A stretch of DNA of 23,645 nucleotides from a virus. The position numbers were made by a program, and so were the translations under genes. The notes below the pieces were generated by a model. It had not been told where the DNA came from, did not search any database, and saw nothing but the letters and a program-made list of their open reading frames with translations. Positions 730-22,514 of this stretch are shown in pieces. How positions within the stretch are numbered: position 1 is the stretch's first letter; the number at the start of each line of letters is the position of its first letter. The stretch is taken from IMG/VR virus record IMGVR_UViG_3300039109_000030, positions 1 to 23,645 of that record; one strand, written 5' to 3'.

Positions 730-2631
730 TTAGCAGCCACCCGAGCTAAGGCCACTATTTGCCACGACACCACCCGCAAATGTCGCTAACGTATTAATTC
801 CAGGGACAGAACCCGGAACTGCATTACCACTCGCGTTACCAAAAAAAGCATTGTTAAGAACGGACCACTGCCGCGCGGTGCCGAATGAGCCGGAGGTCGT
901 GAAGTTAGCATTTAAGCAACCAGTGGAATTGCTTCGCAAGGTAAAGATTTCACCGATGGTTAAACCAGCCCCGGCGATCAACGCCCCAGCAAAAGCGACG
1001 TTACTGTTATGGGCCGCGTTGACTAAACCGCCGGGAAGATTCGCTGATGCCGCGAATGTGACACCAGAATTAAAGTTTATTATACTTCCTTCATCGAGCG
1101 TGGCACCATAGTTCATTGTGCCCGCAATAATGAGCGGGCTTGCACCGACATTGATCTTACACTTGCTATCGCAAGACACGCCGTTATGGCCGACTGCATT
1201 ACCTTTGAGTGTGGTTCCCGCGTTAAGGTCCGCGCCGCTTTGCTGGTGGAATGAGATACCAACACAACCGGCGGTTCCACCTGTACAGTCCCACGTGATA
1301 TTTGTGGAGATCATGTAGGGGGCGAAGTCTGAAAGTTGAAGTACGAAACCAGCCGCTGGAGTAGTTGTAGGTTGAAGTATGGCAACCCCACCGTTGCCAG
1401 TTATGTTAATAACACTCGCGCCGACGAGCGGGCCAATTATGGACCACGAGCCAACAAATGTTTGGCCGCCGGTCGGAGAACATATCGGCTGAATGTTTCC
1501 GGCTAGATCATATTCAACCTGCAAAATAAAATAACAGGTCGCCATCGAATCCAAAGCGTTAGCTGCAGCGTTAGAAACAAACCCATCGTTAGTGGAACTG
1601 CCACCGTTATCGACAAGAAGTGTTGGCGTGAAAGCGGGATGAAAACGGCCGGGAATAACCCTTGCGGCCCATAGGCCGTTTTCGATTGCTACCGACACGC
1701 ACTGCTGCATGTAGAGGCGCCTGAAGATCGGATTCGGAAAACCGCTCAGCAGGACGGCGTGCGACGAATTGTTGTTGGGATTGCCGTTGCAAACCGATAC
1801 GACAGCATTTGAGGCAAAGCCGGTTACCGCGGGCAGCGTCACGGTGAACGGGCCGCCCGTCACGTAGATCGTCTTACCGGCATCTCCGGCAACGATCGGA
1901 TAATTGGCGGCCTGCGCATTCAGCGTGTTCGTATCAACACCGAGGGCGCCAAGGGCCGCCGGATTGACGTTGATGGCGGTAGGGTTAGCGCCGGTGAGAG
2001 TTATCGCCGTGCCGGCGATAAACGTCGATGACGGGATCGAAACGCAGTTGACCAGATTGCCGTTGCTATCGAAGCAGGCGCCTTGGCTCAGGCGATTGGC
2101 CTTGATCGGCAGCAGCGCCAGCGTTTCCCCTGGAGGCGCGAATACTCCCCGGCCGGTGAAATCGTTGGTCTTGTCCCAGAGCTCGCGCTGGGTCGCAATG
2201 ATGTCGGTGACAACCTGATTGACGTTGCGGGCCGATACGCCGGCGCCCTCGTTGAATTGCGATGTCCGCCGCGGACGGCGAGCGCCGACGATCTGCACGG
2301 TGCCGGTTTGGGCAGCGGTGAAGGTCAGCACCGCATCCGTGATCGGGCGGGCGATGAAGCCGAGCGAACCGGTTGGGCTGGTAATCGTCCAGTTGCCGGA
2401 TGCCGGGACCAGCGCACCATTGACGAACACCTCTAGCCAGTTGGCATAATCGGTGCTGTCGCCGTAGAGCGCAAATCCTACGCTGCAACTACAAGTGCTG
2501 GCCGTGAGCGAGTAGCTCGTTCGCCTTTCCGTATCGGGCAATGCAGGCACCGGCGGCGGTACTTGGGCGAAGGCCGGGAAAATACCGGCAGACAGCGCAA
2601 GGCTAAGGATCAGGCGGCGGATCAGGCTCAT
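730..2631 (-). CDS. Tail fibre/spike-like protein with apparent signal peptide
   Basis: Large 633-residue protein at the usual place of a receptor-binding fibre, between the ejection proteins and the lysozyme. Residues 1-22 look like a Sec signal peptide: two Arg, a hydrophobic core, then AFA|Q at a plausible signal peptidase I site. A Pro-rich stretch follows, then a beta-rich adaptor region that includes a helical segment (NQVVTDIIATQRELWDK). The C-terminal two thirds are Gly/Asn/Ser/Thr-rich with short hydrophobic repeats, as in beta-helical fibres. There are 14 cysteines, including the last residue. There is no convincing Shine-Dalgarno before the ATG, and an in-frame stop just upstream rules out a longer start. 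The 3' half is visibly less GC-rich than the 5' half. The enzymatic or receptor specificity is unknown; the fibre/spike call rests on position and composition. Confidence 0.7.
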   Translation of the reverse strand: MSLIRRLILSLALSAGIFPAFAQVPPPVPALPDTERRTSYSLTASTCSCSVGFALYGDSTDYANWLEVFVNGALVPASGNWTITSPTGSLGFIARPITDAVLTFTAAQTGTVQIVGARRPRRTSQFNEGAGVSARNVNQVVTDIIATQRELWDKTNDFTGRGVFAPPGETLALLPIKANRLSQGACFDSNGNLVNCVSIPSSTFIAGTAITLTGANPTAINVNPAALGALGVDTNTLNAQAANYPIVAGDAGKTIYVTGGPFTVTLPAVTGFASNAVVSVCNGNPNNNSSHAVLLSGFPNPIFRRLYMQQCVSVAIENGLWAARVIPGRFHPAFTPTLLVDNGGSSTNDGFVSNAAANALDSMATCYFILQVEYDLAGNIQPICSPTGGQTFVGSWSIIGPLVGASVINITGNGGVAILQPTTTPAAGFVLQLSDFAPYMISTNITWDCTGGTAGCVGISFHQQSGADLNAGTTLKGNAVGHNGVSCDSKCKINVGASPLIIAGTMNYGATLDEGSIINFNSGVTFAASANLPGGLVNAAHNSNVAFAGALIAGAGLTIGEIFTLRSNSTGCLNANFTTSGSFGTARQWSVLNNAFFGNASGNAVPGSVPGINTLATFAGGVVANSGLSSGGC

Positions 2632-2672: not shown

Positions 2673-5600
2673 TCAGTGGGTCGACTTGGTCGTCTCCGGC
2701 CAGTCGGTGCGGTTGAGCGGCTTGACTCCGAGATTTTCGTTCACGCCATCCTCGACATGATCGAATAGCCGGCGCACCGCGAACAGGTTTTGCAGGAAAA
2801 TCGCCTGCCTCATTTTATGGGTATCCATTGCGGTCCAAGTGCCGTGAAACGCATCATTCATGCCTCCCGCGATACCTTCCATTTTGGAATAGGTTGGTCC
2901 CAGCAGCTCGGAGAGCGCCCCGTTGGTCTGGCGTCTGGACAACGGTTTGTCGGCCCCGATCGCCTGGAACATATCGGTCTTGCCGCCGGTGAACTTGGCC
3001 TGCATCGAGTTGAGTTCGGTAAACCAGCCAAGGATGGCCGAGCGCGAGATACCCTCCTTGATCCAGTCCTGCGGTCGGTCGCTCACTGGCGCGCCAGACA
3101 ATAGGGTATAGGCCCGGTACGAGACCATGCCCATCCCGAGGCTCGCCACGAGTCCCTGAAGGGTGCGGGCATCCATCTGCTGCAAGTTCGAAATCAGCAC
3201 CTTTTCATGGGCGGCGGCGACAAAGGATTTGTATTGGCCGAGCAGCGAGACAACCGGCCCGGACATCCATAGCGGCTTCTCGGCGCCGGGCGTCAGGACT
3301 GCCATGTCGGCAGACCGACCGATCGCGGAGGTGAACACGTCGCGCGCCTGGGTATCGGTCCAGTCGGCGGTATTAGCGACATGAGTTCCCTTGCCGAACT
3401 CCTGCCCGCCGCCGTCCTTGTAGGCCGCCCAGATCCTGCCCGCCATGTTCTGGTCGATGCCGGCCTGTGCCATCCGCTGGACATCGTCCGCGGTGTGTGT
3501 GCCTCCAGCAATCCGCTCTGCCGTGCGCAGGAAGTCCGCAGCCGCAACGGTCCCAGCCACGGTTTTCATGCCGTCCGTCCATGGTCCGTGCAGGTTAAGA
3601 AGCATCGACTTGTCGGCCGCCCAGCCCAGTGCGCGCTCGAATTTCGATCCCGGCAGATGGTTGTCGATGACGTCGCCCCATTGATGCGACAGATGCCCGA
3701 TCGCAGAGTCGATGCCGACGCTCATGTCCTTCATCGACTGCCGCGACGCGGTGGCAAATCCGTCGCCCATGCCCAGCATAGACTTGAAAAACGGCAGGTA
3801 ACCGTCGCCCATGACGTTCATAAAACCGTGGCGATAGACGGCGTTGATCGAGTCCGTCATGCGGTTGAATACCGATGTTCCGAGGTCGGTGATCAGGTTG
3901 TAGTTGCGCGCGACGTTGGCGATGCGGGCTGCATTCGGTTGCGCTGCGGCAAGCTGATAGCCATAGATGCCGCGGATGCGATCGCGCGTCGCGGTTAGGT
4001 CTCGCACCATGGCCTTTTTCTCGGCGTCGAGATTGGTCTGTTGCTTGGTCGATTTGGCCTGCGCCAGCTTGGTATCGTACTCATCGTCCAGCTTGCGCAA
4101 CACGTCGGTCATCTCAACATCGCCGAAACGGTCGGTCAGGTGGATATCGGGAAGCGCGGAACGCAGATGACGGGCGATGACGTGCTCGGTGTCGGTGTTG
4201 ACGAAATCCTTGACCGACGCGGTCGGGATCGCGAAGTCGCGGGAATTGAGCGATCCGCGCACCTGCTGCGCATCCGAACCGAACGCCGACATGCCGCCGC
4301 TGGCGGTCTCATAGGGCAGCCGTCCGTCCGGCGTGGTATTGATCCGGTTGACAATCTCGGCGGCGCGGCCTTCCAGTTCCTCGCGGGACAGATCGCGGTC
4401 GGAGGCGATGATCTTGCGCACGGCCCGATCTACCGCACCATCCGCCCCGCTCAGACGATCTCCCGCTCCCTCATATGTCCCTTCCGCCATCTTCTGTTCG
4501 CGCAACTTCTCGGCCTCGCCGCGGACCTTGAGCGCAGCCTTGGCCTCCTGCGTAGTCTGCCCTTCCCAATCGGCAATTTCCTTTTCGATCTTGCCGCGCA
4601 TGGCCTTGGCGCTTTCCGTCTCGCGGATAAGCTGGTCCTCGAGATCGCCGATCTGCGCAGACCGACCCGACGCTTGATCCGCCAGCGTGTTGCCGCGCGA
4701 GCGGATTTTGCTTTCGAATACCGCACCGCCGCGGGCATTCGGGAGGTTCTTGCCCGGCACGTCGACACGAATGCCGCCATCGTTGCGGTACTGGCTTTCG
4801 CGCAGCTTCTCAGCGCGCTGATAGGCGAACTTGTTAAGCCTGGTGATTTCCTCCTGCCTGTCCTCGATGCCTTCCAGCGCATCGGTACGGCCCTGCAGCC
4901 GGGCTTCGATCTTGGCGATGGTAGCTTCGTGCGATTGCAGCGCACCATTGTAGGCCGTGATCCGCTCTTTCTGCGCCGCCTTGATCCCCTGCTCGCCCTC
5001 CAGCCAGTCGGCAAAAATCTTCTTTGCGCCGTTGTAATTGGCGGCCAATGCCTGCTTGTTCCAGACGCGCGGGAAGAACGACTTGTCGCCCTTCGGCGGC
5101 TCCAATTCCTCGCCAAGCATCGGCTTGCCGTCCGGCCCGGTGGTGCGCTGGGCCAGTTTTTTGATGGGATCGAGCACCTTGGAGCGGATTTGTTGGGCCG
5201 CCGACTGTACTTCGGGGATGGCGTGGACGTCGCCTGCAGTCATGGCGCCGGAAACCTCATCCTTGAACTTGTCGAAGGTGAGCTTGCCCGGAGCCTGCCC
5301 GCGCACGTCCTGAATACCGGCGGCGATGATCGGCGCGCGGCTGTCTGCGAGCTCGCGATATTGCACGAACTGGTCGCGCAAAATATGGCCGGCTTCCAAT
5401 TGGCCGTTGTGGGCCTGCATCTTGATGAGCCGGTCGATCGGCACCCCGCCGCGCGCCGTGGTAATGCCACTGTCGGATTGTGTGAACCGCAGCGAGGTTT
5501 CGGCCAGATCGCCCATCGCTCTCTTGGCGACTATTGAATCCGACGAGAAGATGCGCAACGTCGGGGAAAAGCCCATCATGACGCGGCTGGTATAGTCGAT

Positions 5601-7085
5601 CACGTTGCCGAGAACCGGGACTTCCTTGAGGGCCGTCATCATGTTGTCGGGCAACAGAATGCGCGACAGCTTCATGGTGCGCTCGTCGGAGGTGGCGGCG
5701 GACAGGCTGGAGGTCAGGGTTTTCGGCTCGACCGGTTCGTGCGGAACGATGGTGGTCTCGTCATGGAAGGGTAAGGTTGGCTGGCCGTCGGCAGCCGCGG
5801 CTTTGACTTCCGGCGTGTCGGGCGGGCGAACCGGCGACAGGTCTTTGCGGATAGCCTCGGTCCCGTCATTTGCCGCCGCGCGCTCGCCCCGAGACAGCAT
5901 CGACATACCACCACCGATTAGGCCCATCAGGATCGTGTTCGTGGCGATATTGTTGGCGCTTTCGGCCGGCGTGCGGGTGACCTGCGATCCTTGTAGGGCA
6001 GCTTCCGAGACGGTGGATTTCGCCAGCCCCTCGCCCATGCCGCGGAGCGCGCGGACCGCCAGCCCAGCGGCTTCCCCGGCCTTGAGCTCGCCGAGTATCG
6101 GGATGAACCATGACGGGTCGGTAGCGCCGGCGGCAATCGAGGCCACGGTGCCAAATCCGCCGGATGCCGCCAAGGTCTGCTGGTCTTTCTGCTCCTGCAC
6201 CTTCTTGGCGATCCGGGCATCGGTCTGCGCCGGGTTCACGTCGGCCAGCGACTGATCGATCAGGTCGTCATCCTTGGTCGACTTCAGCCGGGCGATCGGG
6301 TCATAACCAGGAATCTCGGTCATGTCGGGCCGCGACCGGGTGATGGCGTCCAGCATCGAGGCGACCGGGTTGTTTTGCCGGAAGGCGGCACCGATCACGG
6401 CCTCGCCGCCGGGCGCGGTGAATGGTGCGGGTTCCGGCGCGCCGGTCGGCGTCCGGCCGGCGGGCTGGCTGGGGCGACTCAAATAGCCCATCAGCTTATC
6501 GAGGTCCTCGCGCTGAGCCTGGGTGTAAGCCTTTTCGTTGAACTCGTTCGGCCACTGCTGGAATGTATAGCCACGGAAAAATGCCGGCATACCGGCCCTC
6601 GTTTTCCAATCCTCGAATGATCCGGTTTCACCCTCGTTTTTCTGGGCGTACTGATATTGATCCTTAAGAATGTCCTGCTGCGCAGGCGTCATGGATTTCT
6701 GCAACTTCTCGTAAGCCTGCTTCACTACTGGATCGGTATTAACCATGTTGTGAGATACGACGTCGCCGAGAATGTCGATCGGCCGCGTATTGGGATCGCG
6801 AATCTCCAGCCCCGGCTTGTCGATTGGCAGTTCTTTCGGCCTCAAAGAATCTAGCGACTGCGGCGAGCTAGGTGCGACGCCAGCGTCGCCGGGTTCCCAA
6901 TGTTCCAAAAACCCTGCATTTGGCCTGAAATTTTCGGTATAGCCGTAGTCTTGATTTTTTAAGATAGGATATTTTGCGCGCGCCTGTTCGAGGAGGTTTC
7001 CTTGCGGGATCGCGTTTCCTGTCGCCAGCGCGCTTGGCTGGTTCGGATTATCGAGCGGGTCCTGCCCTTCGGTAAAAATCGGCAT
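2673..7085 (-). CDS. Large internal virion (ejection) protein, T7 gp16-like position
   Basis: 1470-residue protein, the largest in the window, expected to be carried in the capsid and ejected into the cell envelope with the DNA. An Ala/Gly-rich hydrophobic region spans about residues 309-400. A typical phage polyvalent-protein motif (SFFPRVWNK) lies near 669, and a long charged coiled-coil region runs from about 700 to 870. The C-terminal third shows the pattern of podovirus internal core protein D: helical, with LLGQYKSFVAAAHEK, MGMVSYRAY and GISRSAILGWFTELN. No catalytic domain is recognised. Its ATG overlaps the stop of the upstream 1069-residue gene (TGATG), so the two are translationally coupled. 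Order (adaptor, nozzle, small protein, two large proteins, fibre) matches T7-like phages. The family call comes from order, size and C-terminal pattern, not from an alignment. Confidence 0.75.
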   Translation of the reverse strand: MPIFTEGQDPLDNPNQPSALATGNAIPQGNLLEQARAKYPILKNQDYGYTENFRPNAGFLEHWEPGDAGVAPSSPQSLDSLRPKELPIDKPGLEIRDPNTRPIDILGDVVSHNMVNTDPVVKQAYEKLQKSMTPAQQDILKDQYQYAQKNEGETGSFEDWKTRAGMPAFFRGYTFQQWPNEFNEKAYTQAQREDLDKLMGYLSRPSQPAGRTPTGAPEPAPFTAPGGEAVIGAAFRQNNPVASMLDAITRSRPDMTEIPGYDPIARLKSTKDDDLIDQSLADVNPAQTDARIAKKVQEQKDQQTLAASGGFGTVASIAAGATDPSWFIPILGELKAGEAAGLAVRALRGMGEGLAKSTVSEAALQGSQVTRTPAESANNIATNTILMGLIGGGMSMLSRGERAAANDGTEAIRKDLSPVRPPDTPEVKAAAADGQPTLPFHDETTIVPHEPVEPKTLTSSLSAATSDERTMKLSRILLPDNMMTALKEVPVLGNVIDYTSRVMMGFSPTLRIFSSDSIVAKRAMGDLAETSLRFTQSDSGITTARGGVPIDRLIKMQAHNGQLEAGHILRDQFVQYRELADSRAPIIAAGIQDVRGQAPGKLTFDKFKDEVSGAMTAGDVHAIPEVQSAAQQIRSKVLDPIKKLAQRTTGPDGKPMLGEELEPPKGDKSFFPRVWNKQALAANYNGAKKIFADWLEGEQGIKAAQKERITAYNGALQSHEATIAKIEARLQGRTDALEGIEDRQEEITRLNKFAYQRAEKLRESQYRNDGGIRVDVPGKNLPNARGGAVFESKIRSRGNTLADQASGRSAQIGDLEDQLIRETESAKAMRGKIEKEIADWEGQTTQEAKAALKVRGEAEKLREQKMAEGTYEGAGDRLSGADGAVDRAVRKIIASDRDLSREELEGRAAEIVNRINTTPDGRLPYETASGGMSAFGSDAQQVRGSLNSRDFAIPTASVKDFVNTDTEHVIARHLRSALPDIHLTDRFGDVEMTDVLRKLDDEYDTKLAQAKSTKQQTNLDAEKKAMVRDLTATRDRIRGIYGYQLAAAQPNAARIANVARNYNLITDLGTSVFNRMTDSINAVYRHGFMNVMGDGYLPFFKSMLGMGDGFATASRQSMKDMSVGIDSAIGHLSHQWGDVIDNHLPGSKFERALGWAADKSMLLNLHGPWTDGMKTVAGTVAAADFLRTAERIAGGTHTADDVQRMAQAGIDQNMAGRIWAAYKDGGGQEFGKGTHVANTADWTDTQARDVFTSAIGRSADMAVLTPGAEKPLWMSGPVVSLLGQYKSFVAAAHEKVLISNLQQMDARTLQGLVASLGMGMVSYRAYTLLSGAPVSDRPQDWIKEGISRSAILGWFTELNSMQAKFTGGKTDMFQAIGADKPLSRRQTNGALSELLGPTYSKMEGIAGGMNDAFHGTWTAMDTHKMRQAIFLQNLFAVRRLFDHVEDGVNENLGVKPLNRTDWPETTKSTH

Positions 7086-10827: not shown

Positions 10828-13290
10828 TCATATCGTGATTTCCATGGCGATCTCGAGGATTTGCAACGGTCCCGGGCTATCCTTGATGATGGCGACGCGC
10901 GGGTCGAACGAACTTCCGATCGGCGGCCACGATTCCACGGTCTCGCGCAGCGGCGGCGGCTTGGTGGGATCGTCGCCGATATTCCATGCCGGCACCCGGC
11001 GAAACTGCATCATGGTTCCGAGCGCGGGCGACGTCGGGGTTTGCTTGGCGGAAAACAGCGTGGCGAACATGAAGCCGGTCGAGTTGATGACATAGACCGC
11101 GACGTTCGAAATCTGCCGCAGCGTCATGCGCTGATGCATGTCGGCGCCCGGCGTGGCATCGTCGGCGAATGGCTCGACCGTCATGGTCCACGGCTGGCCC
11201 GCCACCAGCGAAGCGATGGCGAGGTTCTCGCCGCCGTTGTTCTGCGGAACGATGAAGCCGTTGGCGTCGATCTGATAGGTGCCCATCGCGCGGGTCACCT
11301 GATCCATCAGCGTCACGCTCTTGGACGTGATGAACCATAGCGGCCCCTTGCCGCCGGGCGGCGCGAACGCGGCAGGCGCGGCATTCACCGGCAGCGCGCA
11401 ATCCAGATATTGCGTATCGTCGAGGATTTCGCAGATGCCGGCGCCGAAATAACCAGAAGTGAACAGCACGTCGGCATTCCACGCCGATATCCATGAGACG
11501 GCAGCACTGCCCGACCACGGACCCCATCCGATCGCCGGCTTAAGTTGTCCGTCCGCGACGGTGTATTTCCCGACCGCAATTGATCCGTCGCCGTTGAGCA
11601 CATAAGCATAGCGCTCGATGAACGTGCTATCTGATGTCGGGACTGCGATGGCCTGAATATTGTTAAACAGATGCGAGTTGAATTCGCTGAGGTTCTTGGT
11701 GTTGAACGGGCGGTAATAGGCTCCCGGCGCGATGATCGACATCACGGCGTTGCGGCCGGCATTGGCGTAAAGAATGATTTCCTGCACCGGACGCGGCTGT
11801 ACCTGCGCACAACCGTCGCTCGACAATATCTGAAAGCCGACGCTGCCGGGCTTGAGCGGATTGGTCGGTGAGATCGGGATATAATAGAGCTTGGTGTCGC
11901 AGAACACGAATTCCGAGCTCTCGGCGCCTGGCACCACGTAGTAGACCTGCACCTTGCCGGGCGCGATTTCTAACATCGCATTGTCTGGCGAGCTTGCATC
12001 GTTGGCGTAGAGATCGGTCGGTGAGTTGATTGCTGACCAAAGGATGCCGCCGGGGATTGCCGGGAAATTGCAGAAACCGACCCGGAACTGATCGACGAAG
12101 CAGGAAGCGGGATAGCCGCGAAACGAGTTCATTATCTCGTCATCCCATACCGAGATTGCCTGCGGGACCGTCGTGCTTATCGTCGAAACCTTCGCGCTGT
12201 ATGATGGAGAAGCGACAACATCTCCGACCGCAAAGGAAGCCGCGTTCGTGGTGTTCTGCAATAACTGGACCGTAAGACTGACGGGCGAAACTGTTCCAGT
12301 AGATCGGCTCCATCCGGGCCCCGTGATGGTCTCGCCAGTAATGAACGCCGTGCCCGTGCTCAAGGTGACGACGATCTGGCCATACGGCAGGCTGCTGACG
12401 ACGCCGGTAGCGCCGGAAGTAACGCCGGTCACGGCATCGCCAATACTCGGCGTGCCACCGCCGCCGGAAACATTCAATAATTGTGATGTTGGCGATGATG
12501 TTACAATTCCCTGCGCGCCGGAAGGACTTGCATCGAGAACGTCACCGATATTCAGACCTCCAACGCCACCGGAGACGCCGAGGATTTGAGCTTCCGGCAA
12601 CGGCTCGATAACGGTGGCATTCATGCTCGACGTGGTGATCAAAGTGCCTAGCTGGATCTGGCGTCCGGCATACCTTATCCTGGTGCCAACCATTCCGGCG
12701 ACCGCGATTGGCGACGAAAATATGACGGTGATGGCACCGGTCGCCGCGCTCGGAAGTGCTGTGACGTTCTGCGGGGACAACCGATAGAACGGCGTACGCT
12801 TCTGGCCGCCAGCCCTGACCGCTTCGGTGAAGTCGGCAAAACTCCACGTCGCCACGCCGTCCCATGTAATGACCTGTGGAAGCATTCCACCAGGGGCCGC
12901 CAGATAGATCGACAGGCCAAACGCCACATAGACAATCTGATTGACGTTGGCGCCGGTCCACGGCAGCGCAGCGCCATTGCCTTGCGTCGTGGATGACGCG
13001 ACGATCGTTCCCGCCGCATTGCGGATCTGCCAAAGCGCGGGGCCAAATTCAATCTTGAAGATGTTGCCGGGCGAGAGTGTCAGTTCCTCGATGCGGGTAC
13101 AGGCCCCGGTGATCGGATAGAGCGCGCGTCGCCCCGAGCGATCCTGCAACGCCCCGGAATTCAGGATACGGGCATTCGCCATCTGGCGCAGGCCGCCCTT
13201 GCGCGCCGGATGATCGTCAGCGCGCTTGAGGACGGTGTCGACTTCGCCGAAGGAAAAATCCCGCTGCGAGCCCTGGATTTGCCGCACCAT
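10828..13290 (-). CDS. Tail nozzle protein (tail tubular protein B, gp12-like)
   Basis: 820 residues. The N-terminus shows the usual opening of podovirus nozzle proteins: a FSFGEVD stretch, then HPARKGGLRQMANARILNSGALQDRSGRR, i.e. a conserved start followed by the LxNxxxxxxGgxxxRpG-type pattern. The rest is beta-rich and Gly/Thr/Ser-rich, with repeated segments such as SGGVGGLNIGDVLD and SGGGGTPSIGDAVTG around residues 238-290. It should form the distal tube of the short tail. GAGGTGA precedes the ATG. It directly follows the adaptor gene, the standard order for gp11/gp12 pairs. Confidence 0.75.
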   Translation of the reverse strand: MVRQIQGSQRDFSFGEVDTVLKRADDHPARKGGLRQMANARILNSGALQDRSGRRALYPITGACTRIEELTLSPGNIFKIEFGPALWQIRNAAGTIVASSTTQGNGAALPWTGANVNQIVYVAFGLSIYLAAPGGMLPQVITWDGVATWSFADFTEAVRAGGQKRTPFYRLSPQNVTALPSAATGAITVIFSSPIAVAGMVGTRIRYAGRQIQLGTLITTSSMNATVIEPLPEAQILGVSGGVGGLNIGDVLDASPSGAQGIVTSSPTSQLLNVSGGGGTPSIGDAVTGVTSGATGVVSSLPYGQIVVTLSTGTAFITGETITGPGWSRSTGTVSPVSLTVQLLQNTTNAASFAVGDVVASPSYSAKVSTISTTVPQAISVWDDEIMNSFRGYPASCFVDQFRVGFCNFPAIPGGILWSAINSPTDLYANDASSPDNAMLEIAPGKVQVYYVVPGAESSEFVFCDTKLYYIPISPTNPLKPGSVGFQILSSDGCAQVQPRPVQEIILYANAGRNAVMSIIAPGAYYRPFNTKNLSEFNSHLFNNIQAIAVPTSDSTFIERYAYVLNGDGSIAVGKYTVADGQLKPAIGWGPWSGSAAVSWISAWNADVLFTSGYFGAGICEILDDTQYLDCALPVNAAPAAFAPPGGKGPLWFITSKSVTLMDQVTRAMGTYQIDANGFIVPQNNGGENLAIASLVAGQPWTMTVEPFADDATPGADMHQRMTLRQISNVAVYVINSTGFMFATLFSAKQTPTSPALGTMMQFRRVPAWNIGDDPTKPPPLRETVESWPPIGSSFDPRVAIIKDSPGPLQILEIAMEITI

Positions 13291-13298
13291 GGGTCACC

Positions 13299-13982
13299 TC
13301 AATTCGGGGTGCCCGTGCCGGACCAGCCATACGGCGTCTGCCGCCACGGCTTGCGGCTGCGCCGGATCGCGGTGTAGCGCGAATTGAAGATCGCCGTTTT
13401 CGGCTTCTGCATGTCGTGGCGGGCCTTGGCGTGATCGAGCATCGCCGTCGCCTGCTTCCACAGACTGCCGGCTTCTGCATAGTCGCGCTTGAGGCCGCGG
13501 TAGATGCCCGACATGACAGCTAGTTGCAGTACCAGCACCACGGTCGGCGTCGCGAACGTCGGGTCGGAGTTGGTCGAGAAGATGCCCTTTATCGTGACCG
13601 GCAATGGCGTGGTCGGCGGGTTCGGCGGCGGCGGGCCGCCTTGCGCGTTGACGACGATCTGGTTGTTGAAGATATCCCAGACACAGGGCACATCGTTGAG
13701 CCGCACCATGATCAGGTGGACGAGATCGGCGGGCAACGGATAGGCGGTGTCGAACTGATCGTCGTCGGGCTTGGTCGGCGACGGAACTAGCGTCCGCACA
13801 TCGGTCAGCCATGACCACGGATGATCTTCGCAGACAAAGGCCAGCGCTCGCTCATAGGCCGGCGAACAGGCGCTCCATTCCACCGAGCCATCATCGGCTA
13901 CGGCGACGAGATTATCGCCGGTCTGCGACAAGGCGCTGTTGATAATTTCGAGTTTGCCGAGTGGAAATTCGAAGCTGGCCAT
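13299..13982 (-). CDS. Tail adaptor / gatekeeper protein (tail tubular protein A, gp11-like)
   Basis: 227 residues from the ATG at 13982; a TTG at 14006 would add eight residues but is less likely, because GGAAGA sits 10 nt before the ATG. The protein has the pattern of the podovirus adaptor ring that joins portal to nozzle: an N-terminal helix with ALSQTGDN, then YERALAFVCEDHPWSWLT, AYPLPADLVHLIMVRL and a conserved Trp before the strand pairs. A Pro-rich loop (GGPPPPNPPTTPLP) interrupts it near residue 115. This is the first gene of the tail unit, 29 nt behind a conserved decamer and just after a strong terminator. Confidence 0.75.
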   Translation of the reverse strand: MASFEFPLGKLEIINSALSQTGDNLVAVADDGSVEWSACSPAYERALAFVCEDHPWSWLTDVRTLVPSPTKPDDDQFDTAYPLPADLVHLIMVRLNDVPCVWDIFNNQIVVNAQGGPPPPNPPTTPLPVTIKGIFSTNSDPTFATPTVVLVLQLAVMSGIYRGLKRDYAEAGSLWKQATAMLDHAKARHDMQKPKTAIFNSRYTAIRRSRKPWRQTPYGWSGTGTPN

Positions 13983-14011
13983 GCTGCACGTTCTTCCGGG
14001 TACCAATCACG

Positions 14012-14021
14012 CGCAACGCAC
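14012..14021 (-). promoter_or_regulatory. Conserved decamer copy upstream of tail operon
   Basis: Exact GTGCGTTGCG on the minus strand, 3 nt after the T-run of a terminator and 29 nt before the adaptor ATG. Any promoter here must fit in the roughly 40 nt between terminator and gene, or overlap the terminator hairpin. Confidence 0.8.
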
Positions 14022-14024
14022 CCC

Positions 14025-17326: not shown

Positions 17327-17540
17327 TTTCGAAAATTCCCTTTGCCATGACCGAGATCAATTTCGCCGCGAAGGTGCGTTCGCCCTCGTCTGATCGCAAC
17401 GCACCGTCAGTTGGCGCGACCGAAATCGACATCAGTCGGCGTTGCAGAAACACGTACAGCGCAGCCCCGTCGGCGGTGCGCGCGATGCGGTCGATAGCCT
17501 CGATACAGAACTTGTTGGTGGGGTGAACTTCATCGGTCAT
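17148..17540 (-). CDS. Bbp19-like phage protein, 3' end overlapping scaffold gene
   Basis: 130 residues. The ATG overlaps the portal stop (ATGA), which argues for a real coupled gene. Residues 10-70 carry a pattern seen in the Bbp19 group located between portal and scaffold in BPP-1-like heads: TADGAALYVFLQRRLMS, a short loop, then SDEGERTFAAKLISVM. Residues about 72-130 are low-complexity (Gly/Pro/Ser/Arg) and lie wholly inside the scaffold gene in a different frame. The tail may be conserved by chance of the overlap rather than by function. A decamer copy lies inside the gene and encodes G46-A-L-R49. The biochemical role is unknown. Confidence 0.65.
   Translation of the reverse strand: MTDEVHPTNKFCIEAIDRIARTADGAALYVFLQRRLMSISVAPTDGALRSDEGERTFAAKLISVMAKGIFESGGRSGITGSSIGPGGSEQPVVVPSPRAVRVSGEPGSTRRIGPHTRVAGYDFPDIDEQT
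17395..17404 (-). promoter_or_regulatory. Conserved decamer copy upstream of scaffold/capsid genes
   Basis: Exact GTGCGTTGCG on the minus strand, 68 nt before the scaffold GTG and inside the Bbp19-like coding sequence. Its position upstream of the genes needed in highest amount fits an internal promoter-type element. Confidence 0.7.
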
Positions 17541-19362: not shown

Positions 19363-19768
19363 CGTCGCGGAGGACTCCACCATTCGCGACGAGATGGCGG
19401 AAAAGCGCGTCGGGCCGCAACGCACTACAGCGGATGCCGATCAGGTGGGAGACCGCGGTAGTGCAGAACATCCCGAGCCGCATCCACGGCAGATCGTCCT
19501 TGACGTCGATCGTGACCGTGGCATTTCCCTTGATGATGGCGGCGACGATGGCTTGTGCGCCGGGCCCGTCGACCAGCACCTTCAACGAGGTTCGGCGAAA
19601 CCCGACATCATATACCCACCACTGGCCGAGCTCCGGTATCCACGCCAGCGCCGAGACATGCTTGAAGTGTCCGAGCGCGATCAGACGGAAGAACAGATGT
19701 TTCGACTTGCGGTGAAACACCACGGTCCAGCGCGCCGCCTCGATCCCGAATGCGGGGATCTCACGCAT
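19331..19768 (-). CDS. Conserved phage protein with His/Cys pattern of a permuted papain-like fold
   Basis: 145 residues from the ATG at 19768, which overlaps the stop of the 54-residue gene. The frame is open to 19810, but that start would run deeper into the neighbour. Near the N-terminus is HFKHVSALAWIPELGQWWVYDVG (H34/H37), and later FCTTAVSHLIGI (C102) with RPDALFRHLVANGG. This order, a His before strands and then a Cys at the start of a helix followed by a small hydrophobic helix, resembles circularly permuted NlpC/P60 (YiiX-like) enzymes. If so it could be a protease or amidase. The match is to a pattern only, and the protein may be non-catalytic. It has only a poor ribosome site and probably relies on coupling. 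Confidence 0.7.
   Translation of the reverse strand: MREIPAFGIEAARWTVVFHRKSKHLFFRLIALGHFKHVSALAWIPELGQWWVYDVGFRRTSLKVLVDGPGAQAIVAAIIKGNATVTIDVKDDLPWMRLGMFCTTAVSHLIGIRCSALRPDALFRHLVANGGVLRDDASRPAPASP
19416..19425 (-). promoter_or_regulatory. Conserved decamer copy upstream of portal unit
   Basis: Exact GTGCGTTGCG on the minus strand, inside the 145-residue gene, where the triplets AGT GCG TTG CGG encode S115-A-L-R118. It ends 53 nt before the 19362 start (32 nt before the alternative at 19383). Confidence 0.7.
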
Positions 19769-22333: not shown

Positions 22334-22440
22334 ATGCCCTTGTTGGTCTCGCTCGCTGCGGGCGGTCGCCCTTGCTTGCTAGAGAAAGGCACGCGCGCAA
22401 TGCGGGACGCGCGGGATTGATGGGCGGTTTGGATTTGGAT

Positions 22441-22450
22441 CGCAACGCAC
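22441..22450 (-). promoter_or_regulatory. Conserved decamer copy upstream of terminase genes
   Basis: Exact GTGCGTTGCG on the minus strand, 107 nt before the small terminase GTG. It is the first copy encountered by leftward transcription and so could drive the packaging genes. Confidence 0.7.
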
Positions 22451-22514
22451 CGTGGACTTATGCAGCATTGGCGGGCATTGGGGCGGGATTGACGCTGCTA
22501 CAGGTTTGATAGCA

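Follow-up and report, generated by a model that had tools for sequence, protein, structure and literature searches.

Our analysis suggests that soil phages related to Bradyrhizobium prophages encode a T7-like tail fibre with an export signal and an almost always even number of cysteines, pointing to a fibre that folds beyond the cytoplasm and is added to the particle late. The usual view places the folding and attachment of tailed-phage fibres in the cytoplasm. The gene lies in a virus record of 23,645 bases, classed as linear, the whole of which we call the window; it spans 730–2631 on the minus strand, a strand assignment absent from the sequence-only reading of this DNA, starts with ATG and encodes a preprotein of 633 residues according to the open reading frame list and translation. 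We favour, with moderate confidence, the interpretation that the product is a virion tail fibre of a T7-like podophage whose host would most likely be Bradyrhizobium or a close relative, and that it is made as a Sec preprotein, folds with disulfides in the periplasm and is attached at lysis. What was computed is the signal and how well it is conserved, the fold of the domain, the order of the genes, the bias towards even cysteine counts and the distance to the start codon; from these we infer export, cleavage, disulfides, location in the virion and late attachment. The observation made in the sequence-only reading is confirmed, and its interpretation is partly supported.

Gene order and fold of the putative tail fibre

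In T7, the fibre gene comes after that of the last internal virion protein. The minus strand of the window carries, in order, terminase, portal and capsid genes (assigned by position and size), a Tail tube A-like gene (13299–14006, phrog_394), a Tail tube B-like gene (10828–13290, phrog_376), a gp14-like gene (phrog_418), a gene for a lysozyme-like protein, a gene for a gp16-like internal virion protein (2673–7085, phrog_342 and phrog_16310), the fibre gene and a lysozyme-type endolysin gene (2–706, PF00959, 1.6e-17). Matches to Pfam and PHROGs give the succession gp14-, gp15- and gp16-like proteins, fibre and endolysin, which places the fibre gene between the internal virion and lysis genes of a phage that has both tail tubes; by analogy with T7, these are probably part of the tail that binds the fibre. 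From its listed start, the endolysin begins with a hydrophobic stretch preceding the lysozyme domain, possibly of the signal-anchor-release type, and an alternative ATG with a Shine-Dalgarno-like sequence is found at 649.

In a Pfam search allowing E values up to 1, the fibre protein matched no family, PF03906 included, and PHROGs gave no match either. A tblastn search of 50,697 phage records with the protein gave no match, and a 78-residue domain query gave two weak matches (E 0.9). Since there is no sequence match to PF03906, kinship to T7 gp17 rests on fold and gene order. An AlphaFold2 model of the N-terminal part, built from 47 sequences (pLDDT 77.5, pTM 0.59), indicates that residues 33–161 (2149–2535, minus strand) fold like the domain by which T7 gp17 attaches to the tail. 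They superpose on gp17 residues 4–120 (7ey9_a) with a Z of 8.3, in itself a middling value, and an rmsd of 4.5 over 105 residues, and model residues 29–158 match a chain of phage LME-1 (9efk_AE; Z 8.1, top rank in Foldseek with E 3.9e-5). The next nine rows of the structure comparison are also phage fibre or tail-complex chains, making the top rows mutually consistent.

The full-length model is poor (pLDDT 54.4), notably in the variable C-terminal fibre or receptor region (residues 200–633; 733–2034, minus strand), which holds most of the cysteines and ends in one. The C-terminal halves of 43 relatives fall into 31 clusters, so that a conserved N-terminus is combined with an exchangeable C-terminus. 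Together with the fold and the gene order, this modular C-terminus supports the previous assignment as a tail fibre or spike product, specifically as the tail-fibre type. In its N-terminal domain fold, late-gene place, variable C-terminus and single gene the protein resembles T7 gp17-type fibres (PF03906; PDB 7ey9, 7boz, 8e4g), from which it differs in having a Sec-type signal, about threefold the cysteine density, even cysteine counts and no Pfam match. T7-type fibres are usually made without an export signal, a usual rather than a strictly defining trait, and it is from this that the window protein departs.

The same observations bear on the main rival to a virion fibre, namely that a fibre gene has been turned into an exported non-virion protein, such as a secreted or surface adhesin, a decoy or a superinfection-exclusion factor. 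We regard this as unlikely, since conservation is highest in the tail-binding domain, the gene occupies the place of T7 gene 17, the C-terminus is exchanged in the manner of receptor-binding fibres, and no outer-membrane secretion or anchoring domain was recognised with Pfam or PHROGs. Moreover, a profile search found only one gp17-like gene in each of the 19 records or genomes searched, with no second one in any of them. On the other side, such an exported protein would be expected to carry a signal peptide and to have its cysteines in pairs, and the same phages encode other signal-bearing proteins, one of them with BNR, sortilin and Ig-like matches. A precedent also exists in Bdellovibrio, whose mosaic adhesive trimers are described, in the accessible part of PMC10769870, as exported phage-fibre-like adhesins with a signal peptide followed by a conserved, β-rich domain of ~130 residues; likened here by that description, they differ in being bacterial surface proteins encoded outside any phage late operon. 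Finally, one relative (L041) retains the signal and linker without the tail-binding domain. Of the exported roles suggested in the sequence-only reading, those of decoy, superinfection-exclusion factor or enzyme acting on the host surface may still apply.

A conserved signal peptide precedes the fibre domain

Residues 1–22, MSLIRRLILSLALSAGIFPAFA (2566–2631, minus strand), comprise a basic n-region, a hydrophobic core and an AxA site, A20-F21-A22|Q23. The Sec signal with an AFA|Q cleavage site that had been proposed from the sequence is therefore present, and the signal-peptide check suggested alongside it, made here with an in-house rule rather than SignalP, found all three elements, including small residues at -3 and -1. 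The rule was fixed and asks for a net positive n-region, a hydrophobic window and a small-x-small site without charge.

Relatives were collected in several ways. The protein alone retrieved five viral contigs and an alignment 26; among genome contigs, the single protein found nothing and the alignment scan two Bradyrhizobium loci (B. cajani, B. manausense). A profile matched 12 of 265 Bradyrhizobium genomes, nine of them over nearly the full profile length, and 7 of 397 genomes in the order, mostly weakly. A large family of temperate podophages in Rhizobiales is described in the accessible part of PMC10386132. Because the pattern of the first alignment scan spanned the cleavage site and so favoured signal-bearing relatives, our frequencies are based on a domain-only search of viral contigs (patterns IVGARRPRR and RE[TLN]WD[KR][TIL]N; 43 loci), the prophages and two loci of the single-protein search. 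Five further loci tried gave no domain match (L041, L048, L049, L050, L058), and three (L042, L043, L047) are distant profile matches. The merged set of 58 domain-bearing rows was reduced to 54 non-redundant ones by dropping duplicates and near-copies (L031, L097, L102, L071), and to 51 for the signal count by also dropping three that are too distant (L116, L059, L115). As controls we used 34 other T7-type fibres from Alphaproteobacteria, comprising 30 of the 37 places at which PF03906 was found (in 31 of 385 genomes) and four further signal-less or doubtful relatives; 32 of the 34 are complete and longer than 200 residues, and two of them, L178 and L179, are closely related.

By this rule, 48 of the 51 relatives carry the signal and none of the 34 controls does (48 of 54 with the three distant rows, or 49 by eye with L095, which fails the rule solely through an Arg near its site). 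Among the 49 signal-bearing members, the signal is mostly 18–28 residues long and the site is near-invariant, with Ala at -1 in 48, Ala at -3 in 41 and Gln at +1 in 46; A20, A22 and Q23 are invariant in five relatives, and A22 and Q23 in 16. These comparisons support a signal that looks real and cleavable. With no Cys at +1, a lipoprotein was rejected, and Tat export was judged unlikely, as RR occurs within the first 12 residues in just 27 of 49.

Solved podophage fibres start at about model residues 29–34. The signal therefore appears to sit before an otherwise normal fibre, since the N-termini of these virion fibres fall close to that of the mature protein and signal-less relatives agree with this in sequence. 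An N-terminus that stays uncleaved, as a hydrophobic helix docking the fibre in the tail or tethering it to the inner membrane during assembly, is in our judgement improbable. Residues 2–15 are drawn as a helix in the model, and the same kind of T7-like domain follows a hydrophobic N-terminus without a clear cleavage site in a 166-residue open reading frame (L115 and L181, the latter in G690), both in favour of this reading. Yet an anchor that stays uncut would have no use for a near-invariant small-x-Ala|Gln site, which only signal peptidase requires, an uncut signal would add some 29 residues relative to the solved fibres, and the parity of the cysteines would be left unexplained. The previous suggestion of a membrane-like anchor into the tail is thus the less supported one.

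Four relatives, L093 and L109 and the distant L059 and L116, are truly without a signal, their start codons lying at the mature part; L059 begins MSTSPIPPVLDQDRY where the window protein has PPPVPALPDTERRTSY. A phylogeny of the domain from 53 rows, most of its branches weakly supported, requires two or more changes of the signal label on starred branches, and signal-less L093 pairs with signal-bearing L094 (91/73, weak support). A simple reading would be a single gain close to the base followed by loss in L093, with long branches making the base unsure. The same signal and PPPVPALPDTERRTSY linker are fused to a spike-like region, with the T7-like domain absent, in L041 and L058 (Bradyrhizobium genome G108), which may be read as a prophage remnant or a domesticated exported protein; its neighbour in that genome is what we take to be an FkbM-like methyltransferase. 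Outside these bacteria, the gp16-like protein of Microcystis phage Mwe-JY08 is 38.7% identical over 62% of the query; its gene is near that of these alphaproteobacterial phages, and the phage might in fact infect a bacterium living in that cyanobacterial culture. The T7-type fibre that follows the gp16-like gene in this phage (L147, PP395640.1) has no signal and starts MSIQITQARDVTY.

The start codon keeps a fixed distance from an upstream element

As the sequence-only reading had noted, the fibre gene has a decamer of its own, GGTGCGTTGCGG at 2660–2671 on the minus strand, and no clear ribosome site, by eye, in the sequence ...GGGCGCCATTCTCCCGGC-ATG that leads to its start. The GTGCGTTGC part of the element begins 39 nt before the fibre ATG, with a weaker second box in between. 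In 30 of the 54 loci, GTGCGTTGC starts 39–42 nt before the chosen ATG (at exactly 40 in 18), and in signal-less L093, L109 and L116, whose ATG comes later, it lies 40, 40 and 39 nt upstream of that codon. Signal-bearing and signal-less loci share this spacing, so that in either kind the start goes with an element at a set distance upstream. The element looks like a phage promoter with a leaderless or near-leaderless start. The window holds GTGCGTTGC sites at 2660–2671, 691–702, 14011–14022, 17394–17405, 19415–19426 and 22440–22451, all on the minus strand and preceding several genes, among them the tail tube A gene, with an ATG 39 nt downstream, and the endolysin gene, before its Shine-Dalgarno-led ATG.

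This spacing helps to judge whether the hydrophobic stretch arises by chance or from a mis-called start, the true fibre beginning at the mature part and staying in the cytoplasm. Signal-less relatives do start about there, and the window start lacks a Shine-Dalgarno sequence; indeed, homologues with a downstream start, which had been named beforehand as telling against the signal, exist in L093, L109, L059 and L116. These are nevertheless genuinely signal-less genes, three of which share the upstream element at the same spacing, so that they do not show the window start to be mis-called. The signal is moreover kept in 48 of 51 relatives. In the 30 of 54 loci with the decamer at 39–42 nt, the ATG so placed is, in signal-bearing members, the one that precedes the signal. 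From residue 1 to the domain the window offers no further ATG, only one GTG and one TTG codon. Conservation of the signal and spacing of the decamer largely refute a mis-called start, to which we give very little credence.

Cysteines occur in even numbers

Translation confirmed the 14 cysteines counted previously in the window protein, all in the mature part and one of them the final residue. Mature cysteine counts are even in 40 of 43 complete signal-bearing fibres (binomial p 1.5e-9), a set that leaves out 3'-open rows, duplicates, signal-less rows and two proteins below 250 residues (L114, with 245 residues and five cysteines, and L115, with none). Among signal-less controls 15 of 32 are even, or 9 of 26 without zero counts (Fisher p 1e-5 for 40/43 versus 15/32). 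Shared descent does not explain the bias, since 28.8 of 31 remain even when weighted by C-terminal cluster. Cysteines are also denser in the relatives (1.72 per 100 residues, versus 0.51 in controls), and the gp16-like proteins of the same loci, including that of the window, have none (n=11). Three complete members have odd counts (9, 15 and 17).

Pairing of cysteines should lead to even counts, and the bias is thus evidence for disulfides in the fibre and, indirectly, for its export; disulfides could also arise after lysis, without export. The pattern lends support to the earlier view that the cysteines fit an exported, disulfide-bonded protein. A CxC motif in the first strand of the domain (Cys47 and Cys49; 2485–2493, minus strand) is invariant in the first five relatives and absent from a signal-bearing STGPF-type subgroup and from the signal-less members.

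A possible route of fibre assembly

Returning to the favoured interpretation, a virion fibre exported through Sec, the protein would be translated from the annotated ATG and directed by its signal peptide to Sec, where signal peptidase would cut at AFA|Q. Trimerisation and disulfide formation would follow in the periplasm, an oxidising compartment, with head and tail assembly going on meanwhile in the cytoplasm. Once lysis breaches the inner membrane, the fibres could bind the tail-tube proteins via the gp17-like domain; attachment at this stage would be needed because, until lysis, periplasmic fibres and cytoplasmic virions are kept apart. Several observations count against the proposal: the signal-less L093, L109, L059 and L116 show, as judged from their sequences, that this fibre type works without export, the signal-bearing STGPF-type subgroup lacks CxC, three members have odd cysteine counts, and neither Pfam nor PHROGs gives a match.

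Sec export of late proteins is known in tailed phages from endolysins; in the accessible part of PMC6116005, endolysins with a signal peptide or SAR domain, such as Lys44 of fOg44, are Sec-routed and held outside the cytoplasm before lysis. These are late proteins of tailed phages like the fibre, differing from it in being lysis enzymes and not virion parts. Filamentous phage coat proteins, from phages unrelated to tailed ones, are virion proteins with signal peptides and in this resemble the fibre; they differ in that their virions are assembled at the inner membrane and extruded. In the literature searched, with most subscription journals and bioRxiv outside its coverage, we found no tail fibre reported to carry a signal peptide, including in the accessible parts of PMC10386132, PMC3556154, PMC12309495, PMC12656738, PMC6102473 and PMC5567305. 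If the proposal holds, part of virion assembly would take place in the periplasm, receptor-binding fibres would contain disulfides, and their sticky ends would be kept from cytoplasmic particles until lysis. The question of where fibres are added becomes directly testable, and filters based on signal peptides may throw out true virion fibres as host secreted proteins.

Further signal-bearing proteins in these phages

A broader proposal, which we put forward tentatively and hold to be a little less likely than its alternative, is that the virions of one tailed-phage lineage are finished outside the cytoplasm, with the fibre and further fibre- or spike-like proteins made through Sec, given disulfides in the periplasm and joined to fibreless particles at lysis. 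In 19 viral loci, the signal rule finds 18 fibres, five lipobox proteins and 21 further open reading frames (uncurated) on the coding strand and none on the other strand; of the 19 further ones with cysteine, 17 have an even number. Three signal-bearing proteins match tail families, namely a 357-residue protein of L009 (tail fiber protein, phrog_11393), a 439-residue protein of L023 (tail protein, phrog_17312) and a 245-residue protein of L063 (minor tail protein, phrog_2106). No tail-family match in PHROGs was obtained for five of eight signal-bearing proteins tested together, a test that included those of L009 and L023, and signal-bearing L063:9081-10361 had no tblastn match in phages. No such signal was seen in recognisable head, tail-tube or internal virion genes of the window and three longer records; among genes of these kinds, G004 encodes a 191-residue signal-bearing protein. 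Near the fibre, L060:12911-15556:+ encodes a signal-bearing protein of 882 residues with sortilin/BNR and bacterial Ig (Big_7) matches. In another phage record, L068:2325-4460:- encodes a protein of 712 residues with a twin-arginine-like N-terminus (RRKFLAG) and 14 cysteines in all.
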